A stretch of DNA of 64,000 nucleotides from Actinomadura terrae (GTDB lineage Bacteria > Actinomycetota > Actinomycetes > Streptosporangiales > Streptosporangiaceae), in the NCBI RefSeq assembly GCF_022751215.1, contig NZ_JAICDG010000008.1, forward strand, positions 1-64,000, read 5' to 3'. The translations under genes and the position numbers were made by a program. Below are positions 22,557-43,388 of the stretch, piece after piece. Each line of letters opens with the position of its first letter. The first letter of the stretch is position 1. Under the pieces are notes generated by a model, which made no database searches, was not told the DNA's origin, and saw only the letters and a program-made list of their open reading frames with translations.

Positions 22557-22841
22557 CTAAGAATTGTCGGGTCCTGAAAGATCATTACAGTAAGATTCGC
22601 TAACGAAGACATAGAGCTCGTCGAGCGACAACTCCAACTCGGTAGCCAGGGCAGCAACCGTGAAGAATTCCGGCGTGGACGTGCGGCCCTTCTCGATACT
22701 TCGTACTGTCTCGACGGAGATCCCCGCGCCGCGAGCAACGGCTTCCGCTGAGCGTCCGGAGGCGCGTCGGACCTGCGTCAGACGAGAGGCCAGCGCCTGT
22801 CCGCGGCGCTGTGCAGCGGGATCTAGCCTCCTGCGTGACAT
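22557..22841 (-). CDS. XRE-family HTH regulator (controller of the methyltransferase/NurA/HerA module)
   Basis: The 94-residue protein is one Cro/C1-type helix-turn-helix (AVARGAGISVETVRSIEKGRTSTPEFFTVAALA, read about residues 34-66) with a short C-terminal helix, the size of restriction-modification C proteins. It is divergent from the methyltransferase gene with a perfect 14-bp palindrome between them. The minus-strand -10 box lies about 8 nt before its ATG, so its mRNA is probably leaderless. Autorepression plus control of the methyltransferase operon is inferred from this layout. Confidence 0.8.
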   Translation of the reverse strand: MSRRRLDPAAQRRGQALASRLTQVRRASGRSAEAVARGAGISVETVRSIEKGRTSTPEFFTVAALATELELSLDELYVFVSESYCNDLSGPDNS

Positions 22842-22842
22842 G

Positions 22843-22856
22843 GGTATAATTATACC
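22843..22856. promoter_or_regulatory. Palindromic operator containing two divergent -10 boxes
   Basis: GGTATAATTATACC is a perfect 14-bp palindrome. It contains TATAAT on the plus strand (22845-22850) and TATAAT on the minus strand (22854-22849). A bound repressor would block both the XRE gene and the methyltransferase gene at once. Confidence 0.7.
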
Positions 22857-22870
22857 TGTATGATTACCTC

Positions 22871-24001
22871 ATGATGGCGACTGCAGCGACCTCTTCCCTC
22901 AACTGGCCCGAAGATGTGCTGCGCCTGAACGCCATCTGCCCCTACTACACCATGTTTCCGCTGGACTTCCCCCTTCAGCAGCTTGCTGCCCGCCCGGAAA
23001 CCACCCGGGTGCTAGACCCGTTCTGCGGGCGGGGCACAACCCTGTATGCCGCACGTCTGACCCGGTTGCCGTCCGTGGGCATCGACATCAATCCGGTGGC
23101 CGCAGCCATCGCTGAGGCCAAGCTCATACAGGTCACGCCCGGTTCCGTGGTCCGACTCGCTCGGCAGATCCTCAACAGTGGCTTAAGCGGCGAGATACCC
23201 GAGGGCGAGTTCTGGCGGTGGTGCTTCGAGCAGGAGACGCTGCGCGAGCTGGTGACCCTGCGCGCCGCACTGCTGGAGATGAACACTCCGACAGCAGCCA
23301 TGCTGCGAGCGGTCCTGTTGGGCATCTTGCATGGTCCGCGCAACAAGGGTGTCCCGTCTTACCTGTCGAACCAGATGCCGCGCACATACGCCTCCAAGCC
23401 CGGCTATGCAGTGAAGTTCTGGACCAAACGCGAGATGGAGCCAGCGCGCGTCCCCGCCTTGGCAGCTATTGAGCGACGGGTCCAACGTCTTCTGGGCGCG
23501 GCGCCGCTTGCCCACGGCGGGAAGGTCTACCTGGGTGACTCTGTCGAGACCCTCAACCGCCTGAGACAGAAGTTCGATCTAGTGGTCACCTCACCTCCCT
23601 ATTACGGCATGCGCACCTACGTGGCCGATCAGTGGCTGCGCTCATGGTTCCTCGGGAGTTCTCCCGAGGTCCCCTACGGCTCGCAAGGGCAGATCGCCCG
23701 CCAGCCGAATCAGAAGGCGTTCATCCAGGCTCTGGCCGAGGTATGGACCGCTACCGCCCGCCGCTGTCACCAGGGCGCCCGGCTAGCGATCCGGTTCGGC
23801 TCTCTACCCTCAGCCCGCACTGATCCAGAACAGATGCTCTTGGCCTCCGTGAAGGAGTCAAAGGCTGGGTGGGTGGTCAAGGAGGTCCGACAGGCTGGCA
23901 CGCCGGCCAAACGGAACAGGCAGGCCGAGCAGTTCGGCAAGGCCGGCTCCGCCATCGACGAGATCGACCTCGTTGCGGAGCTGGTCGATCTGCCCCGTTA
24001 G
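22871..24001 (+). CDS. DNA methyltransferase with TSPPY motif (N6-adenine or N4-cytosine)
   Basis: The 376-residue protein carries the SAM-binding motif I DPFCGRGTT (about 49-57) with GIDINPVA after it, and the catalytic motif IV TSPPYYG (about 240-246). Motif I precedes motif IV with some 180 residues between them, where a target-recognition region could lie. TSPPY is usual for N4C and some N6A enzymes; the base cannot be decided from sequence. It heads the plus-strand operon with the nuclease and ATPase genes and would mark self DNA if the module is restriction-like. ATG 22871 and 22874 are both possible starts. Confidence 0.88.
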   Translation: MMATAATSSLNWPEDVLRLNAICPYYTMFPLDFPLQQLAARPETTRVLDPFCGRGTTLYAARLTRLPSVGIDINPVAAAIAEAKLIQVTPGSVVRLARQILNSGLSGEIPEGEFWRWCFEQETLRELVTLRAALLEMNTPTAAMLRAVLLGILHGPRNKGVPSYLSNQMPRTYASKPGYAVKFWTKREMEPARVPALAAIERRVQRLLGAAPLAHGGKVYLGDSVETLNRLRQKFDLVVTSPPYYGMRTYVADQWLRSWFLGSSPEVPYGSQGQIARQPNQKAFIQALAEVWTATARRCHQGARLAIRFGSLPSARTDPEQMLLASVKESKAGWVVKEVRQAGTPAKRNRQAEQFGKAGSAIDEIDLVAELVDLPR

Positions 24002-24114
24002 GGCAGCAACCGGTCACTTTCCACAACTGCATAACACGCTGTCAGTGTCTCATGCAATCCTGTTAGGAGGCTGGACGAGTAACCGCTTGCCCATGGGGCA
24101 GTATGGGGAGAGGC

Positions 24115-25239
24115 ATGTTTGACGCGGACCAGATCAAGCAGCTCAAGCAACTGATCGGCGATCAGGTCGAAGCTGGCCGCGAGGTGCTGGACAGGCTGGT
24201 CGAGCAGACCCGTGCCATCCGTTCCGAGGTCAGAGTGATCAAACCGCGGGCAGCGACGTCTGTCGCGCTGATGGCCTCCGACGGTGGAAATAACAAAGTC
24301 GCCTTCAACCCCTTCTATCTCCAAGTTATCCGCGTCGTGGACTCTAGCGGTAAGGAACTGTGCATGGAGGTGGTCTCCCCGATCACTGACATCACGGCTC
24401 TGAGTCGCCGTCAGTTCCACGAGGACGGCAGTCCACAGACCGCGCTGGGCAGGATGATGCACGGGCTGGGCGTACGATGGCTCCAAGATTTGTCGCCGAT
24501 GATGTCCGGCAAGTCGCCCAGTTGGGTGCAGGTCTTCCGGGACCTGTGTGAGTGGGCCACGCTGTACGATCTGATCTGTCATCGCGATTACGCAGTTGAC
24601 ACCTTGATCGTCCGTGATGGACTGCTACGCAGCAAGATCTTCCACGGCGAGCTGTTCGTGAAGATGGGCGAGTTGATGTACGAGGCCATAGAACGAATCC
24701 GGTCTCGCGACCGGCGCAAGGTGTGGCTGGTCGGACTAGCAAAGAAGACTCAGGTCTTGGAGTACTATCGGCTGGCGATATCACTGTCCGGCGTTTTTGA
24801 CAACGGTGCGGCCTGTTTTGCCAAGGTTCCCACAGAAATGCTAGACGAAGTGTACCTCTGGGACGAGTATACTCGGGACATCGAGGACGATTCTACGGGC
24901 GAGAAGCCGAAGTTCAACTTTGGATCCATGTACTTCGTCCGCTTCGGACCGCATTCCGGCGATCCTATTTGGACCGTGGACGTCATGTCCCGTCAGGACA
25001 GGGAAGTTCAGGCGATCTTCGGATACCTGCAGGCGGATGCGGTGGCCGGCTTTCCCATCCCGCTCTACCCTAACTGTATCCAGCAAGCCGACAACTTCTC
25101 CCGCGTCGCCGACCTAGACATGGACATCGTCGAAGATCAACTCGTCGATGCTGTCCGCGACCAAGTTGGCGAGGACAAGGCGCCGGTTATCGACGCCTTG
25201 CGGCTCGCCTCCGACGTCGCTGCCCGCCGCTACGAGTAA
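24115..25239 (+). CDS. NurA-type 5'-3' nuclease domain protein
   Basis: The 374-residue protein shows the NurA pattern: a first acidic motif ASDGG (Asp56-Gly57) opening the RNase H-like core, a second IVRDGLL (Asp168-Gly169), a lysine motif WLVGLAKKTQVLEYY (about 204-218) and the C-terminal YPNCIQQADNFSRVADLD segment that normally contacts HerA. NurA resects DNA together with HerA. ATG 24115 is chosen because GGGGAGAGG lies just upstream. The HerA-like gene follows after 44 bp. The assignment rests on motif order, since overall identity to archaeal NurA looks low. Confidence 0.75.
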   Translation: MFDADQIKQLKQLIGDQVEAGREVLDRLVEQTRAIRSEVRVIKPRAATSVALMASDGGNNKVAFNPFYLQVIRVVDSSGKELCMEVVSPITDITALSRRQFHEDGSPQTALGRMMHGLGVRWLQDLSPMMSGKSPSWVQVFRDLCEWATLYDLICHRDYAVDTLIVRDGLLRSKIFHGELFVKMGELMYEAIERIRSRDRRKVWLVGLAKKTQVLEYYRLAISLSGVFDNGAACFAKVPTEMLDEVYLWDEYTRDIEDDSTGEKPKFNFGSMYFVRFGPHSGDPIWTVDVMSRQDREVQAIFGYLQADAVAGFPIPLYPNCIQQADNFSRVADLDMDIVEDQLVDAVRDQVGEDKAPVIDALRLASDVAARRYE

Positions 25240-25283
25240 CACCCCATCCTTCCCGGTCCGCATTCTGTGGAGCAAGAACCGAC

Positions 25284-27527
25284 ATGAGCCTGTTCGAGCG
25301 CGACAAAGTCGTCGGCACCTTCCGTGGCTTCTCCGAAAGTGGCATGGAGTTTCATGCGGACCTTGTGCTGCCGCACCACGACGACTTCCAGACCATGGCG
25401 ATGCACGGCCAGTTCGTCCTCGTCCAGCTCGAACACGAGCGTGAGGCCATTCTAGGGCGGATCACCACCATCTCCTCCCAAGGTCGCCTGGTGTCCCCTA
25501 TCGGCGAGGACTACGCCACCCGCGCGGTCCGCGACCAGCGGCCCATCCCCGACGAGCTGCGCGAGCGCTACCTGAAGTACAAGGTTGACATTCGTATTCT
25601 TGGCGTCCTTCGAATGGAGGGAGACAAGCACATCTTCGTCCCGAGTCACCGGCGTCTCCCCCATGTCGGCGCCCAAGTCGCGCTCCTGGGCGACGACCTG
25701 CTCGCCGAGGTCGTCAACGCCAAAGACACCACCGACGGCGCGGTTCCCATCGGCTACCTTGCCTTCGGTGAGTTCGTCTATGCTGGTAATGACAGCCGGG
25801 TAGGCGATACCTCATGGATGCAGATCCAACAGCCAGCGATCATGCCGACTTTTCAGATCGATAAGCTTGTAGCACGCCGCAGTTTTGTCTTTGCTCGCGC
25901 TGGCTTCGGCAAGTCGAACTTGGTCAAGTTGCTCTTCTCCGCTCTATATCAAGGCCAGCCCAGCGTCCCACGACGCTCTGGCAGCGCTCCTGTCGGCACG
26001 GTTATCTTCGACCCGGATGGAGAGTACTTTTGGCCCGACTTCAAGGGCCGTCCCGCCCTGTGTGACGTGCCGCACTTGCGCGACAAGCTCGTCGTCTTTA
26101 CCAACCGCCAGGGACCCAGTGACTTCTACCAGTCCTTCGTCGTCAACGGCGTCAAACTGAACATCAAGGAACTCCAGGCATCGCGAGTGCTAGGCATCGC
26201 CCTGCCGCCGGAAAAGCAGGACCAGCAGAACGTCGTCAAACTTAAGTCTCTCGAAGCACCCAGGTGGGGGCAGCTCGTCGATCTGATCCACCGCGAGAAG
26301 TACAGTGCGGACCGCTCCCAGGTCCAGCAGATCCTTAATCTCGAGCCCAGCCAAGAGGCCGAAACTAACGCGGCGATCGGCAACATGACCCGCGTTGTCA
26401 ACGCACTCCACGATCCCGACAGCCAACTCCTGAGTGCTCTGAAGAACTGCCTGTCGCAAGGCAAGCTCTGCGTGGTGGATATCTCTCAAATGCGTGGTTC
26501 CCAGGGACTCCAACTCGCTGGCGTGATTCTCGGTGACATCTTTGAACACAACCAAAACCAATTCACTGAGGCCGATCCGAAGTCGATTCCCACCATCGCC
26601 GTAATCGAAGAAGCCCAGTCCGTTCTCGGCGGCTCCAGCCAGAGCGAAGACGGGCCTTTCGTATCCTGGGTCAAGGAAGGTCGCAAGTACGATCTCGGCG
26701 CCCTGCTCATCACACAGCAGCCAGGCAGCCTGCCGCAGGAGCTTCTCAGCCAGGGGGATAACTTCTTCGTCTTCCACCTGCTCTCCCAGGGTGACCTGAT
26801 TTCCCTAAAGAAGGCCAACGCCCACTTCTCTGAGGATCTCCTGGCCACCCTGCTCAACGAACCACTCGTCGGCAATGGCATCTATTGGTCCAGCGCCCCT
26901 GGAACCGACCGCCATTCGCGCCCCTACCCCGTCCCCGTGCGCGTCCTCAGTTTCGAAGACTCGTACGCGATGGCCGACCCCGACTACTCGACCGAGGCCC
27001 CCGACAATTTTGCTACTCAGACCAAGGCCGCCGTTGAAGAACGCCGTTCCGAAGCGAGAGCCGCCACCGCAAGCCTCGCAGCCAGCCATCCCCCCGAAGA
27101 CGCCAGCAAGGCGACTGGAGAAAGTCACGCAGCAGACGACAGCGCCATCGCGATCGTTCATCTTCGAGACAAGCCTGAGTTTCATAAAATGATCAATAGT
27201 CCTCGCGGCATCAAGTGGGGACGTGTCGGCCATCTGCTGGCCGAGAAGGCGCCCGCGCATGCGAAGCGCGACGGATCCGCCGACCAATGGGGCATGAGGC
27301 TAGTCAAACAGGCACTGGACCAACTGTATCCAGGACAGTGGGACACTATAACTCGAGAAGACGAGAGGAGTCCAGGTAGGACCCCCAAGTTCATCATGCT
27401 CAAGAAGTACGTTCCGAAGGCAGAAGTGGAGGAGGAGCAAAAGACAGACGAGAAAAGGAGTGATGTGCAGTTCCAGAGTGATGTGCAGGTCGAGATCGCT
27501 CAGGTTGAGGACGTCCCTCCCTTCTAA
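25284..27527 (+). CDS. HerA-type hexameric ATPase (FtsK-HerA superfamily)
   Basis: The 747-residue protein has an N-terminal HAS-barrel-like domain (about 1-160) and a DUF87/HerA ATPase core. Walker A is FARAGFGKSN (about 203-212), the HerA hallmark FDPDGEY is at about 242-248, Walker B is PTIAVIEEAQ (about 436-445), and sensor/arginine regions include LITQQPGSLPQELLSQGDN. A C-terminal extension (about 560-747) contains an Ala-rich linker and a small folded domain (HLRDKPEFHKMINSP...WGRVGHLLAEKAP) of unknown role. It would pump DNA into the partner NurA nuclease. Codon use is less GC3-biased than in the core genes, which fits foreign origin. Confidence 0.88.
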   Translation: MSLFERDKVVGTFRGFSESGMEFHADLVLPHHDDFQTMAMHGQFVLVQLEHEREAILGRITTISSQGRLVSPIGEDYATRAVRDQRPIPDELRERYLKYKVDIRILGVLRMEGDKHIFVPSHRRLPHVGAQVALLGDDLLAEVVNAKDTTDGAVPIGYLAFGEFVYAGNDSRVGDTSWMQIQQPAIMPTFQIDKLVARRSFVFARAGFGKSNLVKLLFSALYQGQPSVPRRSGSAPVGTVIFDPDGEYFWPDFKGRPALCDVPHLRDKLVVFTNRQGPSDFYQSFVVNGVKLNIKELQASRVLGIALPPEKQDQQNVVKLKSLEAPRWGQLVDLIHREKYSADRSQVQQILNLEPSQEAETNAAIGNMTRVVNALHDPDSQLLSALKNCLSQGKLCVVDISQMRGSQGLQLAGVILGDIFEHNQNQFTEADPKSIPTIAVIEEAQSVLGGSSQSEDGPFVSWVKEGRKYDLGALLITQQPGSLPQELLSQGDNFFVFHLLSQGDLISLKKANAHFSEDLLATLLNEPLVGNGIYWSSAPGTDRHSRPYPVPVRVLSFEDSYAMADPDYSTEAPDNFATQTKAAVEERRSEARAATASLAASHPPEDASKATGESHAADDSAIAIVHLRDKPEFHKMINSPRGIKWGRVGHLLAEKAPAHAKRDGSADQWGMRLVKQALDQLYPGQWDTITREDERSPGRTPKFIMLKKYVPKAEVEEEQKTDEKRSDVQFQSDVQVEIAQVEDVPPF

Positions 27528-28039: not shown

Positions 28040-28564
28040 TCAATTGCCACGTCCCAACACCGAGCGCATGATCATGACACACTGGGCGACCTCTTCGTCG
28101 ATCTCTTCACGTGGGTAGGCCACGTGGAGGTTCATCTGGTGATCCTTGGTGCGGACGCGTTTAGTCCATGCCTCGCTCATCTGCGTGCCAGCCTGGTGTT
28201 TCACCGCCCTGACTAGCCGCGTGTAGGCCATGGCGGCCTGGGGTTCTTCGATGCGCATCCAGGCTTGGTAGAAGGCGATACGGGACTGGATTTTGCTGAT
28301 GTCCTCGGTGAGTTGGACTCGGGCCTCAGGGCTGCCGGAGCGACGCCGGACGCGGTACGGCAGCTCGGCGTAATCCTCAACCGCCGACAGGGCTTCCGCG
28401 AATGTCTTGGCCAGCCGTTCGCGTCGGGCGGTCCGTTGGGTGAGCCCGTACCCGACGACGGCAACGATCACGGCACCGACGATCGCGATGGTGGCGGCCA
28501 GGAGTGCCGCCGTCTGGGCCCATGTCCATCCCGCCTGCACCGCAGTACCCGCCATGGAATGCAT
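28040..28564 (-). CDS. One-TM membrane protein, putative CBASS effector
   Basis: The 174-residue protein has a single strong membrane helix near the N-terminus (QTAALLAATIAIVGAVIVAV, about 18-37) followed by a helical cytoplasmic domain rich in Arg/Glu (TQRTARRERLAKTFAEALSAV) and a C-terminal region with SEAWTKRVRTKDHQMNLHV. No enzyme motif is seen. It is the third gene of the CD-NTase/E2 operon, the position where CBASS loci carry the cell-killing effector; many such effectors are small TM proteins. The assignment is by context. Its start overlaps the E2-like gene by about 90 nt; ATG 28564 and 28555 are both possible. Confidence 0.6.
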   Translation of the reverse strand: MHSMAGTAVQAGWTWAQTAALLAATIAIVGAVIVAVVGYGLTQRTARRERLAKTFAEALSAVEDYAELPYRVRRRSGSPEARVQLTEDISKIQSRIAFYQAWMRIEEPQAAMAYTRLVRAVKHQAGTQMSEAWTKRVRTKDHQMNLHVAYPREEIDEEVAQCVMIMRSVLGRGN

Positions 28565-29040
28565 GGTGACCGATGATCCTCATCGGTACCACTTTTGCGG
28601 GAGTGGTCCGGTAGATGCGGCGCCTCGGCTCCGGGCCACTCGCCCGTCAGACGCCACCATTCCTCGCGCATCAGGTGGGCGACGATATGTCCGAGCAGCA
28701 CGGCCGGTCCGTCGGGCCGGGTCCACTGTTGGTCGGTCGGGTCGTACGGAAACCACATGCAGAGCGCACCGTCGTCGTAGCGGTGGGGAGACTCTGCCGG
28801 CCCGTCGGAGTAGACGTAGGGCAGATCGGACATCGCGCGCCCGAAGGCGATCACGATGTTCTGCTTGGGGATGTCCTCGAGGTCGAGGCGAAGGATCAGG
28901 GCGTAACCCCCGCGGTGCCGCTGTGGTGGACGGGTAGTTCGAACTGGGAAACCACAGGCGGCAAGTCGATGTTGAAAGAGGATGCGTGGGGCTGGCCTGG
29001 CATACCAGGCCAGTCTTCCTTGACCGCAGCCCCTGCTCAC
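28468..29040 (-). CDS. E2-like (ubiquitin-conjugating fold) protein of a CBASS operon
   Basis: The 190-residue product resembles stand-alone E2-like proteins of short type II CBASS. It has an N-terminal region with FPVRTTRPPQRHRGGYALIL, the beta-strand LRLDLEDIPKQNIVIAFG, a Tyr-rich SDLPYVYSDGPAESPHRY segment, and the probable catalytic Cys in DDGALCMWFPYDP, followed by WTRPDGPAVLLGHIVAHL and TGEWPGAEAPH. E2 proteins of this kind prime the CD-NTase by conjugating or cleaving its C-terminus. GTG 29040 overlaps the CD-NTase stop by 4 bp. The last about 30 residues overlap the effector gene and are low complexity. Confidence 0.72.
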   Translation of the reverse strand: MSRGCGQGRLAWYARPAPRILFQHRLAACGFPVRTTRPPQRHRGGYALILRLDLEDIPKQNIVIAFGRAMSDLPYVYSDGPAESPHRYDDGALCMWFPYDPTDQQWTRPDGPAVLLGHIVAHLMREEWWRLTGEWPGAEAPHLPDHSRKSGTDEDHRSPCIPWRVLRCRRDGHGPRRRHSWPPPSRSSVP

Positions 29041-30062
29041 TTGTGGATTCCCTGGGCGCCGTATGCCCGAGTCGGGCGCACCAGCCTGTCGGGACCACCC
29101 AGGCCCAGCGCAGTGGTGGTCACGGGTAGACCCCGCCGCAAGGAGGCGACTTTGTTCGCCAGCCCGGTGGGTGCGGGGTCGTCCAGGTACTTGAAGAACA
29201 TGCGTGAGAGCGCGGACAGCGCCGCCTGCCGATCGTCGTCATGTTCCAGAGCCTCGGTGACTGCTGTGGACGCCGTCCGAAGGCGCCGGGCGGCGGTGGC
29301 GGGCGGGATCAGCAGTTGCACGTCCTTCGATACTCCTGCCGGGTCCTTGGTCGCCCGTCCCGATGCGACTCGCGCGGTGGCCTCGGACAGCACGATGCTC
29401 AGTGCAGTGGCCACTCCCATGCCCGGCTCGACGAACTCCCAAGCCCAGACGCTGAGGTTGTGCGAGGAGAACCCGGGCTGGCCGTACTGCTTGTTCCACG
29501 CCTTGAGGAGGCGGATCACGCGTCGACGGGTCCGACGCAGCGACTGACTGCCTGAGGTGAACAGCTCGACGTGGCGCTCTGGGTGGGAGGCCTCCCAGGA
29601 GTCGTTCTCCAGGTTGGGGATCCATAGGCCTTCGCCGTCGCGACGCGTGAGCGCGACGACCAAGTCCACGGTCGGGTCCTGGCCATCCACCGGCTGACCG
29701 AAGAACATCTTGGGACCGCGCTTGGAGGTGCCGCAGTGTGCCTTGGGATAGACCTCGCGGACGGCCGGGCCGAGGAGAGAGCAAAGATCCCCAGTGATCT
29801 CCTTCGGTGTTTCGCCGCCACCGTCAGGTCCGAGTTTCGGGTAGGCGCGACGGTCCAGAACGAGCCCGCCATCACCGTCGCCGATCGGATGGATGAAGGT
29901 GTTCTGCGGCATCGAGCCGCTTGCGTACGTCCGCAGCGCGCCTGAAAAGCCGATCGCTTTGGAGCGGACCAGCTTCAGCCGGTTCCGCACCTCGGCCAGC
30001 GGTTCGCGGTGGGCGTCTACCCGACTGCGAACGTCGTTGAGGATGTCTTCGGTGTGTCCCAT
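29037..30062 (-). CDS. CD-NTase (cGAS/DncV-like nucleotidyltransferase)
   Basis: The 341-residue protein has the nucleotidyltransferase active site: the GS motif in YASGSMPQNTF, the metal-binding pair in IGDGDGGLVLD (Asp-x-Asp) and a third acid in DPTVDLVVAL. A helical C-terminal half includes RRVIRLLKAWNK. These features fit CBASS CD-NTases (SMODS type), which make cyclic oligonucleotides after phage sensing. ATG 30062 is chosen because GGAGGA lies just upstream. The gene leads the CD-NTase/E2/TM operon and is divergent from an XRE-ImmA pair. The nucleotide product cannot be predicted. The C-terminus ends GIHK; E2-type systems act on such tails. Confidence 0.82.
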   Translation of the reverse strand: MGHTEDILNDVRSRVDAHREPLAEVRNRLKLVRSKAIGFSGALRTYASGSMPQNTFIHPIGDGDGGLVLDRRAYPKLGPDGGGETPKEITGDLCSLLGPAVREVYPKAHCGTSKRGPKMFFGQPVDGQDPTVDLVVALTRRDGEGLWIPNLENDSWEASHPERHVELFTSGSQSLRRTRRRVIRLLKAWNKQYGQPGFSSHNLSVWAWEFVEPGMGVATALSIVLSEATARVASGRATKDPAGVSKDVQLLIPPATAARRLRTASTAVTEALEHDDDRQAALSALSRMFFKYLDDPAPTGLANKVASLRRGLPVTTTALGLGGPDRLVRPTRAYGAQGIHK

Positions 30063-30082
30063 GGTTCCTCCAGTGGGTTGGT

Positions 30083-30156
30083 GTTGCATGAAAGGTGCAA
30101 CGTGACTTCAGTGGTGGCTAGCATGACAGGTGATGGGTGTTGCACGCAAGTTGCAC
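30083..30156. promoter_or_regulatory. GTTGCAC repeats in the divergent promoter of CBASS and its regulator
   Basis: Site 1 is an inverted repeat GTTGCA (30083-30088) / TGCAAC (30096-30101). Site 2 has two direct GTTGCAC copies (30139-30145 and 30150-30156), 11 bp apart, about one helical turn. TAAGAT (30167-30172) is a likely -10 box for the plus-strand regulator, whose start codon at 30179 suggests a leaderless mRNA. These are the probable operators of the XRE protein. Confidence 0.65.
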
Positions 30157-30178: not shown

Positions 30179-30703
30179 ATGACCTCCGCGCCCGATCCTG
30201 AGTTCCGTCAGGAGGAGATCCCGGTCGAAGCCGAACGGCTGGCCATCGATGAGCTCGGCAGGATGCTGAAGGAACGCAGGGGTGCCCTGTCGATCCGCAA
30301 GGCAGCCGCTGAGGCAGGTGTGAGTTTCAGTACCTGGTCCAGAGTGGAGTCAGGCTCTCAGCCCGATTTGGCCACCTTCACGCGGCTGTGTACCTGGCTG
30401 GGCGTCTCGCCGTCGCGGTTCTTCAACCCCATCAGCGAGCGGACCACCTCACCGCTTGATCAGGCGATCAGTCACCTGCGAACCGACCCGCGCCTTACAC
30501 CGGATGCGTCGGAGAAGATCAGCGCCATGCTGCGCGGGATGTACGACGCACTCGCCCAGGATGTCACCCCGCGCCGCTCCCCTGTTGCGTGTCATCTTCG
30601 AGCCAGTTCGGTGCTGCGGCCCGGCGTACCAGAGCGGCTGGCAACAGTCCTGAACGACATGCATGACGAACTCGTCCGTAAGATCGAGATCGGGGAGCTG
30701 TGA
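30179..30703 (+). CDS. XRE-family repressor, CapH-like
   Basis: The 174-residue protein has an N-terminal helix-turn-helix (about 36-85: IRKAAAEAGVSFSTWSRVESG, then LGVSPSRFF) and a C-terminal helical region of unknown fold. It is coupled by a 4-bp overlap to an ImmA/IrrE peptidase and is divergent from the CD-NTase operon. CBASS systems with a CapH repressor and CapP protease have this arrangement; the protease inactivates the repressor after DNA damage or infection. CapH-like is an inference from context. Confidence 0.75.
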   Translation: MTSAPDPEFRQEEIPVEAERLAIDELGRMLKERRGALSIRKAAAEAGVSFSTWSRVESGSQPDLATFTRLCTWLGVSPSRFFNPISERTTSPLDQAISHLRTDPRLTPDASEKISAMLRGMYDALAQDVTPRRSPVACHLRASSVLRPGVPERLATVLNDMHDELVRKIEIGEL

Positions 30704-31254
30704 CCCTTCCTCGTGGCTTCAAGGCGAACGCCGAACGCGAAGCCGTCCGACTCCGCAATGAGATGGGCCTTCCCCCCAACGCCCCGATCAGCATTCACGT
30801 CCTCGCGGAACATCTAGGCATCGCTGTGGTAAGTGGCGAGCAACTAGGCGCCCTGGAGGCGCTGGAAGAGTTGGAACGGATGCAGGCCTACGCCTTCTCC
30901 GCGGCAACCTTCCACGTAAAGGGCAAGAACTACGTCGTCACCAACCCGCTGCGCACAGCGGGTCGTCTGGCCAGCGACGTCGCTCACGAGGTCGCCCACC
31001 TTCTGCTCCGCCACGAACTCACCGAGATCCGCGAGGTGGGCGGCATCCCCTTCCGCACCTGCATGCCCGAGCAAGAAGAACAGGCCACCGCGATGGGCGG
31101 CACCCTCCTCCTCCCACGACCACTCCTGATGACGGCAGTATCCCGCGGCATGAACCCGAGCCAGATCGCCGACGCCTACGGCGTGACCAACGAAATGGCA
31201 CGGTTCCGGTACAACACCACCGGAGTCGTGAAACAACTTAGCCGCCGGGGCTGA
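30700..31254 (+). CDS. ImmA/IrrE-family zinc peptidase, CapP-like
   Basis: The 184-residue protein has the HExxH zinc site in DVAHEVAHLLLRHE (about 98-111) and the COG2856 layout, with an N-terminal helical part ending ISIHVLAEHLGIAV and a C-terminal winged-helix-like region (IADAYGVTNEMARFRYN). Such peptidases cleave XRE repressors. The GTG start overlaps the XRE stop by 4 bp. Its target is probably the adjacent XRE protein, which would release CBASS expression. A 13-bp stem-loop follows. Confidence 0.82.
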   Translation: MTLPRGFKANAEREAVRLRNEMGLPPNAPISIHVLAEHLGIAVVSGEQLGALEALEELERMQAYAFSAATFHVKGKNYVVTNPLRTAGRLASDVAHEVAHLLLRHELTEIREVGGIPFRTCMPEQEEQATAMGGTLLLPRPLLMTAVSRGMNPSQIADAYGVTNEMARFRYNTTGVVKQLSRRG

Positions 31255-32775: not shown

Positions 32776-34620
32776 GTGAGCGGCGAAAAGTTCTGGGACT
32801 TCGTCCTGGGTGAAGATCACTTCCCGGCCATGCAGTGGGTTCTGCGCGATCATGGCTCGTTCGACGGCCCCGTCCATATCCAGGTCGGCGAACTCGAATC
32901 CGGCGGCTGGTATGTGCGGCATCAGGGCTTCGGCGTCCGCAGGTTCCCCGACCGGCGCGCTGCGCGGCGCGCGGTTCAGGCGCAGATGCGGCGGCACGAA
33001 GGGCGGTGGGAGGAAGTGCCCGCTGACCCCGAGCCGTTTCGCCTGCTCTGCGGCGCGGACGGCTCCCGGATTCTTTATGACACGGGCGATCCCTGCCTCT
33101 ACGAATGCTGGGGCGAACTTAAGGACGCCATCTGGGACGAGCTCTGGGCCGCGATCAGCTCCGGGAAGACATTACGCCGGACGGAGGCGCACGCCCTTCT
33201 CGGAGGCGAGATAGAAGTGACGCGATATGTCGACCCGAAGGACGGCGTCCCGAGGTTCGCCGTCGTCGTGGCCCTCGACGCGGGCGGCGACTACCGGGTC
33301 GTCGACTTTCCCGACGAGGACGCGGCCGTTCACCTGTATGAGGAGGTCGTCCGCTCCAAGGAGGACCGTGAACTACCCTATCGCGCCACAGACCTCGACG
33401 AAGTCCCCTATCAGGCGCCGATCACGGGACGTCCGGAGGTGCCCGAGGGTCTCACCGCCCTTCCCGACGGGTCGATCATTTCCAGTGACGAGGCCGAAGA
33501 ATGGCGTTACCTGTATGGACAGCCCCGCTTCGACTGGCCGCTGACGCCGGACGCGCCGAACCCGCCGAGCCCAGTGCGCGCCATTACCGGAGAGCCGCGG
33601 GACTGGCTGCCCACCGAAGCGGAAGTGCGCGACGTCACCCCGTCCGCGTGGACGGAGGGCGCAGGGGACGGCGAGCCGGCGTTGAGAGCGCTGTCCCTCG
33701 CCGTCCTGCCTGATGGCCGGACCGTCCTCGCCTCCGGCCACGACGACGGCGCCCACCTGTGGAACCTGCGGGACGGCGGGATCGCCCGCTCCTTCTCCGG
33801 CCACGCCGAGTGGGTGCTGGACGTCGCGCTGGCCGTGATCGGCGACGGGTCGGTGGTGCTTGCGACCGCGGGCAAGGAAGGCCAGGTCCGAGCCTGGTCG
33901 ACCGGGGACGGCACGGTCCTCCAGGAGATCGACGACCATCGGCGGGCGGTCAACGCGGTGGCCTGGGTGTGCCCGCCGCGCGATGTCCCGTGGCTGATCT
34001 CCGGCAGCGACGACGGGACGGTCCGGGTGTGGTCGGTGGAGTACGCCAGGGAGCGTGCGCGATTCGAGGTGGGGCCGCCGGGCGTCGATGTGGTCTGGTC
34101 GGTCGCCGGGACGGTGCTGGCTGACGGGCAGGTCTGCGTCGCCGCCGCCTCGGACGACTCGACGCGTTCGGCCGTCCACGTCTGGGACGTCGAGACCGAG
34201 ACGAAGACGCACGAGTTCGTCATGGAGCACACACCGACGTTGATGGTGCCGAAGGTGGCGCTGGCCACGTTGTCCGACGGCTCGTTCCGGGTCGCGGCGG
34301 CCGCCGGACCTACGGTGCGCGTCTGGGACGGGCTCACCGGCGACGTCATCCGGACCTTCCCCATCGAGGAGACCGGCTCCGCCGCCGTCGCGCTCGCCGT
34401 CCTGCCGGACCTGCGCGTCGCCGTCGCCGCCGCGAACGGACCGGCCACCCTGGTCTGGGACACCGAGTCGGGCGCCGAGCTCGCCCGCGTCGACCACGGG
34501 AGGCACGGCCTGCACCATGCCGTCGAACTGGCGGCGCGGCCCGGCGGGGGGCTGGTGCTGGCGGCGGCGCACGCCGACGACCGCCCCGCGCGCGTTCTGC
34601 GGCTGAATCCGCGCTGGTAA
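32776..34620 (+). CDS. WD40-repeat beta-propeller protein
   Basis: The 614-residue protein has an N-terminal non-repeat region (about 1-290) that contains several Trp/Asp-rich segments, followed by a seven-bladed-type WD40 propeller (about 295-612). Blades end in motifs such as DGAHLWNLRDG, EGQVRAWSTGDG, DGTVRVWSVEYA, RSAVHVWDVETE, GPTVRVWDGLTG and PATLVWDTESG. It is probably a sensor or scaffold. The CHAT protease gene follows 12 bp later, indicating co-transcription. Pairing of WD40 and caspase-like proteins is common in predicted bacterial conflict systems. Confidence 0.82.
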   Translation: MSGEKFWDFVLGEDHFPAMQWVLRDHGSFDGPVHIQVGELESGGWYVRHQGFGVRRFPDRRAARRAVQAQMRRHEGRWEEVPADPEPFRLLCGADGSRILYDTGDPCLYECWGELKDAIWDELWAAISSGKTLRRTEAHALLGGEIEVTRYVDPKDGVPRFAVVVALDAGGDYRVVDFPDEDAAVHLYEEVVRSKEDRELPYRATDLDEVPYQAPITGRPEVPEGLTALPDGSIISSDEAEEWRYLYGQPRFDWPLTPDAPNPPSPVRAITGEPRDWLPTEAEVRDVTPSAWTEGAGDGEPALRALSLAVLPDGRTVLASGHDDGAHLWNLRDGGIARSFSGHAEWVLDVALAVIGDGSVVLATAGKEGQVRAWSTGDGTVLQEIDDHRRAVNAVAWVCPPRDVPWLISGSDDGTVRVWSVEYARERARFEVGPPGVDVVWSVAGTVLADGQVCVAAASDDSTRSAVHVWDVETETKTHEFVMEHTPTLMVPKVALATLSDGSFRVAAAAGPTVRVWDGLTGDVIRTFPIEETGSAAVALAVLPDLRVAVAAANGPATLVWDTESGAELARVDHGRHGLHHAVELAARPGGGLVLAAAHADDRPARVLRLNPRW

Positions 34621-34632
34621 CGGGCCGACCGG

Positions 34633-37600
34633 ATGCCTTTGGACGATGTGTCCGCCAAGCTCGCGGACCTGCTGGGAGAGTACTCAGCGACCGGGGACGA
34701 GCCGCTGCTCCTCGGCGCCGAGGCCGACGGATACGCGTCGGCGCTGTGGCGAACCGTCCGGGCCGTCGACACGGCGACCGCGTCCTCCACGCTGATCGAG
34801 TCGTTCGTCACGGCGAGCGTCACGCTGGCGGTGCTGTATTGCCAGCGGTACCTGTGCCGCGCCCCCGGGAGCCCGGCGGGAACCGCCGACCTGGCGCGCG
34901 CCGTGGTGGCCGCCGCACCCCTCGCGGCCGACCGCCGCCGCGTCCCGCCGCCGCTGCGTCCGCTGCTCGGCCCTGAGTCCGACGACGGCGCGCAGGCCGA
35001 CACTGCGCGGGCCCTACTGCGCTCGCCGGGGCGGGAACCGGCGCTGCTCGACGCCGCGATCGTCCTCTTAGCCACGGCCGTGAACCGCAGGCCCGCGGAC
35101 GTCTCCCGGCAGGCGGCGCTCTGCCTCGCGCTCCGGCGCCGCCACGAGCGGGACGGCTCCCGCGCCGACCTGGAGCGGGCCGTCGCCGCTGGTGAGAGCG
35201 CCGCTGCGGGGCGGGCCACCGCAGGGCCCGAATCCGACGCGTGGACGTCGCTCGCGTCCGCCTACCTGTGCCGGTTCCGGCTGCGCGGGGAGCTCGACGA
35301 CCTCCGGCGGAGCATCCGGCTGTTCGAACGGGTTCCAGACCCGGACGCAGAACCGCCCGTCCTCGCCGATCTCGGCGCCGCCTACCGGCTCCTGTTCGAA
35401 CACAGTGGCGACCCTGAGCACCTCGACGCCGCCGTCCGCCGGAGCGAACGCGCCCTCGCCGCCGCCGGGGACCACGCCCGCCCGGCGTGGCGGTCCGAGC
35501 TGAGCACGGCGCTGTTACGCCGGCACGAGCGGACCGGTTCGCGCGCCGACCTCGATCGCGCCGCCGACCTCGCCGAGCAGGTCGTCGCGACGGCGCCCTC
35601 GGACGATCCCGATCGGGGCGTGTACCTGGCCTCCGCCGCAGATGCCGTGCTGCTCCGGCACCGCCGCGGCGGCGACCCGCGGCATCTCGATCGGGCAGTC
35701 GCGCTCGCCGACGAGGCCCTCGAAACGCTCCCGGAGGACGACCCGCGCCGCACGGACGTCCTGCGCGGCTTTGCCGACGCCCTGCACCGGCGCTCGATCG
35801 CCACCGGCTCCCTGGACGACCTGGACCGCGCCGCCACGTCGGCCGCCTGGGCGCGGGCCGCGCTCCCCGACGGGCATCCAGCGCGAGGCGCGACGACCGC
35901 CCGGCTCGCCGCCGTCCACTTGACGCGCTACACGCGCACGGGCGTGCTCGCCGACCTCGACCGGGCCGTCGAGCTGGGGGAGGAGAGCCTGACAGCGCCC
36001 GGGAACGCGCCGGAGCGGCGGTCGATGCTCGGCGAGGCGTACCGGCTGCGGTACGGCGTCGGCGCCTCGGACGCCGACCTCCAGTGGGCGATCCACCATG
36101 GCCAACAGGCCGTCGACGCCACCGCGCAGGACGACTTCGCACTGCCCGGGCGCCTCGCCAGGCTCGCCGCCGCGCACTGGACCCGGCACCGGAGCACCGG
36201 CGACCCGACCGACCTCGACCGGGCGATCGCCCTCGGCGGCGAGGCCGTCGACCTGACGCCCGCCGACGACGCCGACCTGCCCGGACGGCTCGCCGACCTC
36301 GCCGCCGCGCACCTGGCCCGGCTCCGCGCCACCGGCTCCCCGGCCGACCTCGCCGCGGCCGTCGACCGCGCCGAACGGGCCTGGCTCGGCCTCCCTCCGG
36401 GCCATCCGGACCGGCCGCGAGCGGCCGCCGGGCTGTGCCGCGCGTACCAGGCGCGGGTGGACGGCGGCGGCGCGTCCCCGTCCGCGGCGCGGCTCCGCGA
36501 CTTGGCGGGGATGGGCGACGATCAGGAGACCGCCTCGCCCGCCGACCGCGTGGCGGCCCGGCACGCCGCTGGCCTGCTCGCTCAGGCTGGCGGAGCCGAC
36601 CGCCTCGCGGTGGAACTCCTGGACGCGGCCGCCGCGCTGTTGCCGTCGGTGGCACCGCGCGAAGCGGGCTGGTCCGACCAGCAACACCGGATCGGCGAAC
36701 ACGCGGGGCTGGTCGCCGCTGGTGTCGCCACGCACTGCGCCTGCGGCGACCCGGCGGGCGCCATCGAGTTCGCCGAACTCGGCCGGGGCGTGCTCCTCGC
36801 CGCGCAGGCCGGCACCCGCGTCGGCGTGGCCGACCTCCGCGACCGCGACCCCCGGCTCGCCGACCGGTTCCAATGGGTGTGCGAACGGCTCGGCACTCCC
36901 GGGTTCGGCGCCGCCGAACGCCGCCGCTGGTGGGACGACCACGACTCGCTGCTACGCCGGATCCGCGCCCTTCCCGGCCTGGCGCGTTTCCTGGCGGCGC
37001 CGCGGCTGGACGACCTGCGCGCGGCCCCTGCCGGCGGCACCGCGGTCCTGCTCAACGCGGGCCGGGATCGCGGCGACGCCGTCCTCGTCCGGCCCGAGGG
37101 GCCGCCCGTCCACGTGCCTCTGCCCGAGCTCCGGGAGGGAGTCGTGGCCGATCAGGTCACGGCGCTTCTCGCGGCGCTCTCCAGCAGACGGTCCCTGAGC
37201 GGCGTGATGATCCTGCGACGGACCGTCCGGGACGTCCTGGCCTGGCTGTGGCGCACCGCCGTCGGCCCCGTCGCGGACGTGCTCGGCCCACCCGGGCTGG
37301 AACCGCATCGGGTCTGGTGGCTGCCGACTGGCGCGCTGGGCCTGCTACCGCTGCACGCCGCCGAGGAACCCGGGAGCCCAGGGGCCCTGGACGTCATGGT
37401 CTCCTCGTTCGTGCCATCCCTGCGGGCACTGCGGGACGCCCGGCAGCGCCCGTCCACCGCCCGTCGGGAAACGCTGACCGTCGTGCTCGCGCAGACTCCC
37501 GGCCACGCCGACCTGCGCGAGACGGACGCGGAGGCGCGCCTCCTCGACGGGCCGTCGCTGACGGACGCGCAGGCCACGGCAAATAACGTTCTCAACGCCC

Positions 37601-38031
37601 TCGGCGATGCCACATGGGCGCACTTCGCCTGCCACGCCGTCGCGGACCCCGTGTCACCGGCCGCCGGCGGCCTCCTACTCCACGACCGGATGCTGACTCT
37701 CCCTGAGCTCGGGGGCCTGCGGCTGCCCGAAGCGGAGCTGGCGTACCTGTCGGCGTGCTCGACCGCCGGGCACGGTGTCCGCTACGCCGACGAGGTTCTG
37801 CATCTGGCGTCGGCGTTCCAACTCGCCGGGTTCCGACACGTCGTGGCCAGCCTCTGGCCCCTCGTCGACACCGCCGCCGCCGAGGCCGCGACCGCCTTCT
37901 ACGCGGCGCTACCCGGAACTCCGGTTGCCGATGCGGCGGCGTCCGTTCTTCGGGAGGTCACCCTCGGCCTGCGCGCCCGGCATCGGACGCAGCCGGAACT
38001 CTGGGCGCCTCTCGTCCACAGCGGCCCCTGA
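34633..38031 (+). CDS. TPR-repeat protein with C-terminal CHAT caspase-like protease
   Basis: The 1132-residue protein has a long alpha-helical TPR-like array (about 90-640; units such as RHERTGSRADLDRAADLAEQ and TGDPTDLDRAIALGGEA), a helical linker and a C-terminal CHAT domain (about 780-1130). The catalytic dyad is His1001 in HFACHA and Cys1042 in YLSACSTAG, both intact, with LWPLVDT and the FQLAGFRHV strand following. CHAT proteases cleave specific partners and trigger cell death or immunity. The WD40 gene lies immediately upstream. It may be activated through the TPR or WD40 part; the substrate is unknown. Confidence 0.88.
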   Translation: MPLDDVSAKLADLLGEYSATGDEPLLLGAEADGYASALWRTVRAVDTATASSTLIESFVTASVTLAVLYCQRYLCRAPGSPAGTADLARAVVAAAPLAADRRRVPPPLRPLLGPESDDGAQADTARALLRSPGREPALLDAAIVLLATAVNRRPADVSRQAALCLALRRRHERDGSRADLERAVAAGESAAAGRATAGPESDAWTSLASAYLCRFRLRGELDDLRRSIRLFERVPDPDAEPPVLADLGAAYRLLFEHSGDPEHLDAAVRRSERALAAAGDHARPAWRSELSTALLRRHERTGSRADLDRAADLAEQVVATAPSDDPDRGVYLASAADAVLLRHRRGGDPRHLDRAVALADEALETLPEDDPRRTDVLRGFADALHRRSIATGSLDDLDRAATSAAWARAALPDGHPARGATTARLAAVHLTRYTRTGVLADLDRAVELGEESLTAPGNAPERRSMLGEAYRLRYGVGASDADLQWAIHHGQQAVDATAQDDFALPGRLARLAAAHWTRHRSTGDPTDLDRAIALGGEAVDLTPADDADLPGRLADLAAAHLARLRATGSPADLAAAVDRAERAWLGLPPGHPDRPRAAAGLCRAYQARVDGGGASPSAARLRDLAGMGDDQETASPADRVAARHAAGLLAQAGGADRLAVELLDAAAALLPSVAPREAGWSDQQHRIGEHAGLVAAGVATHCACGDPAGAIEFAELGRGVLLAAQAGTRVGVADLRDRDPRLADRFQWVCERLGTPGFGAAERRRWWDDHDSLLRRIRALPGLARFLAAPRLDDLRAAPAGGTAVLLNAGRDRGDAVLVRPEGPPVHVPLPELREGVVADQVTALLAALSSRRSLSGVMILRRTVRDVLAWLWRTAVGPVADVLGPPGLEPHRVWWLPTGALGLLPLHAAEEPGSPGALDVMVSSFVPSLRALRDARQRPSTARRETLTVVLAQTPGHADLRETDAEARLLDGPSLTDAQATANNVLNALGDATWAHFACHAVADPVSPAAGGLLLHDRMLTLPELGGLRLPEAELAYLSACSTAGHGVRYADEVLHLASAFQLAGFRHVVASLWPLVDTAAAEAATAFYAALPGTPVADAAASVLREVTLGLRARHRTQPELWAPLVHSGP

Positions 38032-43134: not shown

Positions 43135-43388
43135 GGACGTCGGCTCCTCTGGCTGAAGACGGTTGTCGGTGTCCGGGGGACCGGTATTGCGAGTACCGGT
43201 CCCCACCCTTTGACGATCTCTCAATAGATCGAACGCCTGTTCGAGCGGCCATGTTCCCGGGAACCGGTGGCCATGGCTCCCGTGATGGCTCCTTGAAGAT
43301 CATCTCCGGTGACACCCCCCTGCTCATCAGGGGAGACGCCAGAGTAGGGGGGTTTCGCCCCCCACGCCTCCTGCCGGTCTCGTTGGTG
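43135..43388. repeat. Repeat-rich gap with palindrome and REP-like hairpin
   Basis: It contains the perfect palindrome GTTCCCGGGAAC (43253-43264) and a hairpin GGGGGG/CCCCCC around TTTCG (43347-43363). The latter resembles the GGGGGC-TTC-GCCCCC hairpin at 38640-38654. No gene is supported. An attachment site could lie here, next to the integrase. Confidence 0.4.

Follow-up and report, generated by a model that had tools for sequence, protein, structure and literature searches.

How does a cell that carries a translocating nuclease of the HerA-NurA type spare its own DNA, and what is such a pair doing behind a methyltransferase gene? We addressed this question at a locus of Actinomadura terrae, within a 64,000-nucleotide stretch (contig NZ_JAICDG010000008.1, positions 1 to 64,000; referred to here as the window). 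The first-pass annotation described an XRE controller gene diverging from a tight operon of a DNA methyltransferase (MT), a NurA-like protein, and a HerA-type ATPase, located in a defense-rich island, and proposed that the MT protects host DNA while HerA-NurA degrades unmodified invading DNA.

RESULTS

Organization of the locus

All four open reading frames are present and open, and the motifs reported for them are found in the translations (Table 1), so what the first-pass annotation saw in the sequence was confirmed, with two corrections: its NurA start at 24115 is the second in-frame ATG, and XRE is not part of the conserved gene set. The XRE protein matches Pfam HTH_31 (1.4e-10), the MT matches N6_N4_Mtase (8.9e-9), and the ATPase matches DUF87/HerA (1.3e-15; 58.5 bits against a cutoff of 23.2), whereas the NurA-like protein has no Pfam hit by sequence.

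Table 1. Features of the locus, with coordinates in the window
Feature	Coordinates	Strand	Length	Assignment	Motifs (residue)
XRE	22557-22841	-	94 aa	XRE/HTH_31 protein; clade-specific, probable regulator of the operon	
Palindrome	22843-22856		14 bp	Candidate XRE operator (binding inferred), GGTATAATTATACC; 1 bp from the XRE start and 14 bp from the MT start	
Promoter-like match	22835-22864		18-bp spacer	Best promoter-like match for MT	GTGACA-18-TATGAT
MT	22871-24001	+	376 aa	SAM-dependent methyltransferase; predicted DNA base methyltransferase	DPFCGRGT (motif I, 49); TSPPYYG (motif IV, 240)
NurA	24103-25239	+	378 aa	Predicted NurA-fold nuclease (TdpB-like)	ASDGGNN (58); IVRDGLL (169); GLAKK (211)
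HerA	25284-27527	+	747 aa	HerA-type ATPase/translocase (TdpA-like) with a C-terminal extension of unknown role	AGFGKSN (206); DPDGEY (243); IEEAQ (441)

At E 1e-3, an XRE relative was detected in only 3 of the 80 related loci described below (L032, L033, and L034) and in none of the other 77; a further one was found at locus L027. In this clade, the 29-bp gap between the divergent start codons supports the proposed controller role, as it holds a perfect palindrome that is the only match in the window with up to 2 mismatches (0 in 100 shuffles), lies inside the spacer of the promoter-like match, and is kept as a near-palindrome in L027, L032, L033, and L034.

Predicted structures of the three core proteins

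The NurA-like protein was modeled with a pLDDT of 86.9, and structural comparison (VIA) showed that the model adopts the NurA (RNase H-like) fold, with the best match to TdpB (Z 24.3, about 17% identity), followed by Sulfolobus NurA (2ygk, Z 14.5) and NurA 3tai (Z 14.0). TdpB is also the only PDB hit of the nuclease profile (1.8e-9). D60, R146, E150, D172, K214, and D293 are invariant in 84 of 84 aligned sequences; D60, E150, D172, K214, and D293 are putative catalytic residues by motif alone, as a PDB search with the most divergent NurA returned no NurA on which they could be mapped. The Pfam NurA family PF09376 gave no hit for the window protein and no match in the window's genome, and it matched 1 of 10 relatives at E 0.032.

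For the ATPase, a profile search against the PDB gave TdpA as the best hit (3.8e-26), ahead of Sulfolobus HerA (4d2i, 8.6e-15) and of the DUF4297- and SIR2-type HerA chains. The Walker motifs are intact, with K210, S211, E442-Q445, and E465-Y469 invariant in 71 aligned sequences.

The MT (model pLDDT 87.6) carries a helical insert between motifs I and IV, and m4C appears more likely than m6A as its product by motif rules. Sequence families point to DNA N4/N6 methylases: the Pfam N6_N4_Mtase hit outranks UPF0020 (0.0016), PADLOC assigns MTase_II (4.7e-17), and the first PDB profile hits are m4C/m6A enzymes. Foldseek ranked Escherichia coli Dam best (7.5e-8); however, the best VIA matches are the tRNA methyltransferases Trm14/Trm11 (Z 19 to 20 over about 180 of 376 residues), so that a DNA substrate rests on sequence families.

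Recurrence of the three genes

A genome scan gave 149 NurA relatives, of which the best 80 were read (20 named phyla, 5 archaeal loci; NurA identity of 41 to 93%); the scan rested on short peptide patterns, and relatives without them are missed. All 80 have HerA beside NurA, and in 73 pairs with both ORFs called, 24 overlap by 4 bp and 21 have an 11- or 12-bp gap. The same MT family, at a required identity of 38%, lies in the locus in 61 of the 80, and 4 of the other 19 have it elsewhere in the genome. No fourth protein family recurred in the 80 loci apart from overlapping frames and few-locus groups. Recurrence as a set across many bacterial phyla and some archaea is more than expected by chance.

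The three trees agree. Over 57 rows (56 full trios, from 54 of the 80 loci or fewer plus L027 and L028, and the window; loci with a missing or truncated gene were dropped), the distances correlate at 0.93 for NurA-HerA, 0.81 for NurA-MT, and 0.83 for HerA-MT, values reached in 0 of 999 Mantel permutations, and they also correlate inside each gene-order clade. In samples of the order, 5 genomes have both NurA and MT, 4 have NurA only, 1 has a close MT only, and about 332 have neither (Fisher 2e-8); the two samples (345 and 342 genomes) are not identical, and the table leaves out one spurious NurA hit (genome G247) and two distant MT hits (genomes G141 and G046). Neither the permutations nor the Fisher test corrects for shared descent. 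NurA is present in 9 of 345 genomes of the order, yet at 93% identity in a genome outside it, indicating spread between lineages.

However, 8 of the 80 loci (L037, L038, L039, L063, L075, L105, L108, and L111), with at least 2.4 kb on both sides and no close MT found in the genome, keep full-length NurA and HerA, although five of the eight records are MAGs, which may be incomplete. The complete genome G134 also lacks a close MT, and its NurA has a frameshift near the C terminus. The nuclease therefore seems tolerated without this mark. Conversely, MT is present without NurA in genomes G431 and G334.

Neighbor families and other partners of the MT

Among the listed neighbor families are BREX, Dpd, DISARM, and type I/II MTase models. 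The comparison of 108 test and 104 control proteins counted model families at E 1e-10 (159 against 42), not proteins; the control hits are mostly PD-T4-6 kinase models but also include the defense models mad2, mad3, mad6, MzaA, and MkoA. Test proteins came from 20 chosen MT-bearing loci of the 80 (nearest three genes a side plus genes between, at least 150 aa, none over 1,400 aa), and controls were the starts of contig C3 in the same 20 genomes, two of which gave no gene; genes were called by our own greedy ORF choice.

The same MT family also occurs with two other effector modules, a GmrSD-HEPN pair and a helicase protein of about 1,415 residues (nine helicase-type contigs), which fits a self-mark. 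In a sample of 198 genomes of the phylum, no close relative of the GmrSD partner was found, a result that says little about how common that module is. Scans of IMG/VR, plasmids, and phages with the window NurA alone gave no relative, whereas short peptide patterns, which again miss relatives lacking them, located MT copies in 15 IMG/VR contigs and the whole trio in 1.

DISCUSSION

Relationship to characterized systems

The closest characterized machine is TdpAB (PDB 8wet, 8wfd, 8y1k) of the phosphorothioate defense system TdpABC, in which a DNA modification gene likewise lies in the operon. Both a TdpA-like and a TdpB-like protein are present here, but a base methyltransferase stands in place of TdpC, the phosphorothioation enzyme: there is no such gene among the operon genes, and a Pfam scan of 20 window ORFs between 18665 and 43224 (one an overlapping frame) gave no PAPS-reductase-type hit. 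The ATPase is 161 aa longer than the 586-aa TdpA chain. Without a TdpC gene in the operon, the locus was rejected as a TdpABC member. The archaeal and Deinococcus HerA-NurA complex shares the two folds and the gene pairing, but Z falls from 24 to 10 to 14.5, the operon here includes an MT and is patchy and transferred, and the NCBIfam NurA and HerA cutoffs are not reached, while that of Pfam's general HerA domain is.

DUF4297-HerA and SIR2-HerA systems also combine HerA with an effector partner in bacterial defense (PMC11291478, PMC11514479), but the partner here has a predicted NurA fold, without a Pfam or PADLOC hit, and an MT is present. Classical type II restriction-modification shares an MT beside a nuclease, and the divergent XRE gene resembles a controller gene; however, no REase_II model is among the PADLOC hits listed for XRE, NurA, and HerA, and the nuclease is paired with a ring ATPase. 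The methylation-associated defense system MADS, which has eight models (mad1 to mad8), was matched only weakly (MT to mad2, 1e-6; HerA to mad8, 1.6e-9; XRE to mad1, 0.013), with better matches to other models and three core genes here rather than eight.

A proposed restriction-modification-like mechanism

We favor, with moderate confidence, a restriction-modification-like defense system of three core genes, in which the MT would methylate a short, widely shared sequence in host DNA. HerA would form a hexameric ring carrying a NurA dimer, as in TdpAB and HerA-NurA complexes, and thread duplex DNA into the nuclease. By analogy with TdpAB, the complex would degrade unmarked invading DNA, while methylated host DNA is not loaded or stalls the motor, so that a processive nuclease stands in for a site-specific endonuclease. 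In the window's clade, an XRE protein probably limits both divergent promoters through the palindrome; MT is the first gene of this one operon, so it is not separately controlled and would be made first.

Our analysis establishes the genes, the invariant residues, and the co-occurrence of the trio; the motor-nuclease assembly is supported by predicted fold, whereas host DNA methylation at a motif that blocks the nuclease, nuclease action on unmarked DNA, defense against phage, and XRE binding are inferred. The interpretation in the first-pass annotation is therefore partly supported: two findings that it had named as able to refute it, no structural match to NurA and no co-occurrence in distant genomes, were both looked for and did not refute it, and its mechanism has a precedent in TdpABC, but the mechanism is not shown, the loci without a close MT weigh against it, and the XRE controller belongs to one clade only.

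If correct, this would be a widespread restriction class, not named in the libraries searched, in which a ring motor feeding a nuclease replaces the site-specific endonuclease and a base methyl mark replaces phosphorothioation, giving bacterial HerA-NurA pairs a role outside repair. It raises the question of how a motor without an evident sequence reader senses a methyl group. The conserved insert of the MT suggests one motif in all hosts.

Alternative explanations

An anti-phage system in which HerA-NurA is triggered by a phage factor and degrades DNA without regard to methylation, with the MT as a separate or regulatory partner, appears unlikely but is the strongest alternative. DUF4297-HerA behaves in this way, degrading host and phage DNA and showing abortive infection (PMC11291478), and the HerA here resembles anti-phage HerA models, although below their NCBIfam cutoffs; the eight well-flanked loci without a close MT would also fit. 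On the other hand, the frequency of the MT in the loci and the matching trees are hard to explain without a role in self-recognition, and TdpA is the closest PDB relative. A repair function, in which HerA-NurA resects host DNA ends as reported in archaea and methylation directs or limits it, is less likely still. The fold is that of archaeal NurA, and some MT-less copies sit among housekeeping genes (for example, L037 lies beside a gene that reads as alaS), but the patchy presence, the near-identical copy outside the order, the defense-type neighbors, and the copies in IMG/VR contigs argue against repair alone. That the MT modifies RNA or another target, with the three genes forming a defense linked to that, is suggested by the Trm14/Trm11 matches but appears very unlikely given the sequence families and the Foldseek match to Dam.

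A broader possibility, which we regard as tentative and less likely than not, is that one MT family writes a single self-password shared across bacteria and archaea, read by at least three unrelated effectors: the HerA-NurA translocating nuclease, the GmrSD-HEPN pair, and the SF1-helicase protein of about 1,415 residues. In this view, the effectors are swapped or stacked around the same mark (loci L090, L103, and L104 hold two of them), and viral contigs carry the MT with such effectors, which would also give those viruses passage through hosts armed with HerA-NurA.

Surroundings in the window

No repeat of 16 bp or more of the tRNA-Leu region was found elsewhere in the window. The defense context is real, as a CBASS locus lies 0.5 to 2.6 kb downstream.

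Gene organization and genomic context

The first-pass annotation had described an XRE gene divergent from genes for a methyltransferase (MT), a NurA-like protein, and a HerA-type ATPase, and this observation holds: the four open reading frames (ORFs) are present, separated by gaps of 29, 101, and 44 bp. The GC content falls to about 0.60 to 0.63 in this region, compared with 0.70 or more in much of the window. The contig belongs to a 9.0-Mb genome, and it has one NurA match and one MT match at an E value of 1e-20. The genes lie in a stretch between a tRNA-Leu and a phage-type tyrosine integrase; no repeat of the tRNA region of 16 bp or more was found elsewhere in the window. A compact CBASS locus follows on the other strand; farther on, an XRE gene overlaps a gene for an M78 (ImmA/IrrE-like) peptidase, and a WD40-repeat protein is followed by a CHAT-domain protein with a weak TPR-S match, a possible caspase-type conflict pair.

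Coordinates of the features in the window and in three related loci (numbers beginning with L denote loci collected in the searches)
Feature	Sequence	Coordinates	Strand	Detail
tRNA-Leu	window	18397		start of the stretch 18397-43224
XRE	window	22557-22841	-	
Promoter-like match for MT	window	22835-22864		GTGACA-18-TATGAT
MT	window	22871-24001	+	
NurA-like	window	24103-25239	+	378 aa
HerA-like	window	25284-27527	+	747 aa
CBASS locus	window	28040-30089	-	
CBASS 1TM effector	window	28040-28564	-	PADLOC 4.5e-60
CBASS E2-like	window	28468-29040	-	PADLOC 7.2e-67
CBASS cyclase	window	29037-30089	-	PADLOC 1e-165
XRE gene overlapping M78 (ImmA/IrrE-like) peptidase gene	window	30179-31254	+	PADLOC RmrA- and capP-like
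WD40-repeat protein followed by CHAT-domain protein	window	32776-38031	+	CHAT-domain protein of 1132 aa
Tyrosine integrase, phage type	window	41980-43224		end of the stretch 18397-43224
Sacsin/NOV_C protein	L144	5170-8541		1123 aa; PADLOC TmtA 7.8e-66
Protein with a similar start	L145	494-3748		1084 aa
Split HerA	L052	9152-13944		interrupted by about 2.6 kb

In the 29-bp gap between the divergent start codons we found GGTATAATTATACC, 1 bp from the XRE start and 14 bp from the MT start, with TATAAT on both strands, and it is kept as a near-palindrome in the four other XRE-bearing loci. The best promoter-like match for MT carries the palindrome in its spacer (four promoter-like sites were found against a shuffle mean of 1.4), and a bound repressor would cover it; this putative regulation is inferred from sequence alone. 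An XRE relative was not detected in the other 77 of the 80 loci compared below.

Predicted structures and conserved residues of the three proteins

The NurA-like protein has no Pfam, PADLOC, or PHROGs hit at the limits used and only an NCBIfam hit to Sulfolobus NurA at an E value of 0.1, whereas a profile of 10 rows finds one PDB relative, TdpB, at 1.8e-9. The AlphaFold model (pLDDT 86.9) matches TdpB (Foldseek 8.3e-11; VIA Z 24.3 over 325 residues at 3.6 Å), followed by Sulfolobus NurA (Z 14.5), NurA 3tai (Z 14.0), and the HerA-NurA complexes of Thermococcus (Z 13.8) and Deinococcus (Z 10.0), the last only a little ahead of Argonautes at Z values up to 9.9. In 84 aligned sequences D60, R146, E150, D172, K214, and D293 never vary; position 330 is H in 67, D in 16, and a gap in one, and the window has D, together with 15 others, most of them actinobacterial.

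The ATPase contains a DUF87/HerA domain (1.3e-15), and a profile of 22 rows hits TdpA at 3.8e-26, then Sulfolobus HerA at 8.6e-15 and seven other HerA-type chains. The Walker A and EEAQ residues are invariant in 71 sequences. The protein is longer than TdpA (747 compared with 586 aa), and its C-terminal part, to which no role could be given, keeps a few conserved residues (G642, W645, and W686).

In the MT, motif I precedes motif IV, with a helical insert between them, and the best families are DNA N4/N6 methylases. The model (pLDDT 87.6) has Dam as its best Foldseek hit but tRNA methyltransferases as its best VIA matches, over about 180 residues, indicating that a DNA substrate is likely, not certain; the TSPPY motif favors m4C. 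In 62 sequences, residues 144 to 190 have 12 of 47 invariant positions (mean top-residue frequency of 0.73), near the values of motifs I to III (13 of 39, 0.81) and motif IV (10 of 32, 0.78) and unlike those of the flanking helices and the C-terminal part (0.50 to 0.51). No column with at least 85% agreement on each side separates the two gene-order clades. If this region reads the target, as a Dam-type layout would suggest, the motif is probably the same everywhere, although this is an inference.

Conservation and spread of the gene set

A pattern scan of GTDB species genomes gave 149 relatives, of which the best 80 were kept, covering 20 named phyla and including five archaeal loci. HerA is beside NurA in 80 of 80 loci, and the MT family is in the locus in 61 of 80, in 19 named phyla. 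In 54 of these the MT lies within 300 bp (27 upstream, 24 downstream on the same strand, and 3 downstream on the other strand; one of the 54, L062, is a fragment at a contig end), and in 7 it is farther off. Of the remaining 19 loci, 4 have a close MT elsewhere in the genome (L072, L077, L081, and L084), 7 are cut by a contig end within 1 kb on one side, and 8 have at least 2.4 kb on both sides and no close MT in the genome, apart from a 32% partial match for L039 and short weak ones for L037, L105, and L108. Five of these eight are metagenome-assembled genomes (MAGs) (L038, L039, L075, L105, and L108), and three are isolate drafts (L037, L063, and L111). Their NurA and HerA ORFs are full length; all motif strings searched for are present in L063, L075, L105, and L108, whereas one differs in L037, L038, and L039 and three differ in L111. 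Apart from overlapping frames, the other families recurring around the 80 loci were in at most five loci. The protein distances agree over 57 rows and inside each gene-order clade, and gene order changes once on the MT tree and twice on the NurA and HerA trees.

In the order to which the window belongs, the NurA occurs in 9 of 345 genomes, its own included, after one spurious partial hit (genome G247) is dropped, and across the phylum it occurs in 6 of 396 genomes, again with its own included. A copy outside the order (genome G678) is 93% identical, whereas inside the order the best are 87 to 92% identical in two pieces (genome G115) and 78% identical (genome G214). Searches of the plasmid and phage collections gave no match at 1e-5, but one IMG/VR contig carries all three genes (L177 and L192 are the same contig).

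The neighbors of 20 loci carrying the three genes include BrxC, BrxL, PglX, PglZ, DpdF, DrmD, Mza, and type I and II MTase models; control regions of the same genomes gave mainly kinase-type PD-T4-6 models and some mad, MzaA, and MkoA hits.

Taken together, the gene set is real, open, and widely conserved, and it is probably a methyl-guarded HerA-NurA restriction system of the TdpABC and restriction-modification kind, in which a methyltransferase accompanies the TdpB-like and TdpA-like proteins. The proposal in the first-pass annotation, that the methyltransferase protects host DNA while HerA-NurA degrades unmodified invading DNA, is well aimed and partly supported, its last step remaining an inference. 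Our analysis establishes the folds of the models, the conservation, the co-inheritance, and the genomic context, whereas complex formation, DNA methylation and its protective effect, and the threading and degradation of DNA are inferred, with the TdpABC mechanism serving only as background. In the literature searched, which lacked most subscription papers, we found no title or beginning of an abstract that describes an MT-NurA-HerA system and no paper on TdpABC; the system is therefore unnamed only with respect to these searches and to the copies of PADLOC 2.0, NCBIfam, and Pfam used. The works consulted describe HerA/FtsK capture systems, without occurrence of the word NurA (PMC10853773, PMC12839542), or suggest a possible antiviral role for an archaeal HerA-NurA (PMC12977600); the others were PMC11514479, PMC12904381, PMC12707154, PMC12458937, PMC10855626, PMC7251087, and PMC11291478.

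Other gene neighborhoods of the MT family and decayed loci

Fifteen IMG/VR contigs carry a nearly full-length MT at 41 to 48% identity (L178 to L192). Nine of them (L179 and L184 to L191; L188 and L189 gave identical scores) have beside it a protein related to one of about 1,415 residues with an SF1 helicase region (Pfam AAA_11/AAA_12; PADLOC DpdJ 1.3e-39). Two (L180 and L181) have MT, GmrSD, and HEPN in a row, L182 has a diverged GmrSD and a HerA remnant, L192 has NurA-HerA, and L178 and L183 have none of these in the stretch examined. The helicase protein also flanks the MT in loci L143, L144, and L145 from cellular genomes; across these and the viral loci it has about 1,415 to 1,457 residues, with the SF1 helicase part at the C terminus and DpdJ/Mko-like matches in PADLOC, and it is cut short by the contig end in L184. 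Several of the viral contigs read as phage tail and lysis regions. In L144 and L145, a Sacsin/NOV_C protein (PADLOC match tested for L144) and one with a similar start are found beside NurA in Noviherbaspirillum and Bordetella genomosp. 2.

Genome G334 of the window's order (locus L142) has an MT 75% identical to that of the window, followed by GmrSD_N (9.9e-26) and HEPN (2.4e-12) genes, and no NurA match. In L090, L103, and L104, GmrSD and HEPN genes lie between NurA-HerA and the MT, although L104 is fragmented. The MT family is found with GmrSD and HEPN genes alone, in viral contigs, or stacked with NurA-HerA.

A repeated decay pattern was seen in two genomes, G431 (locus L153) and G355 (locus L156), in which NurA was not found and the HerA gene starts at about residue 178. 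In G431, NurA and the first 177 residues of HerA are missing, a gene that reads as a glycerol dehydrogenase stands beside the stump, and the MT is open; in G355, a gene with the same first 100 residues stands beside a HerA stump, and the MT is truncated as well. Loss of the nuclease before the MT is what a dangerous nuclease with a protective MT predicts; however, two cases are few, and the eight MT-less pairs point the other way. In Nocardiopsis sp. CNR-923 (loci L036 and L013), MT, NurA, and HerA each fall into two pieces by tblastn, reflecting decay or sequencing error, and in L052, from a planctomycete MAG, HerA is split by about 2.6 kb of other sequence near query residue 320.
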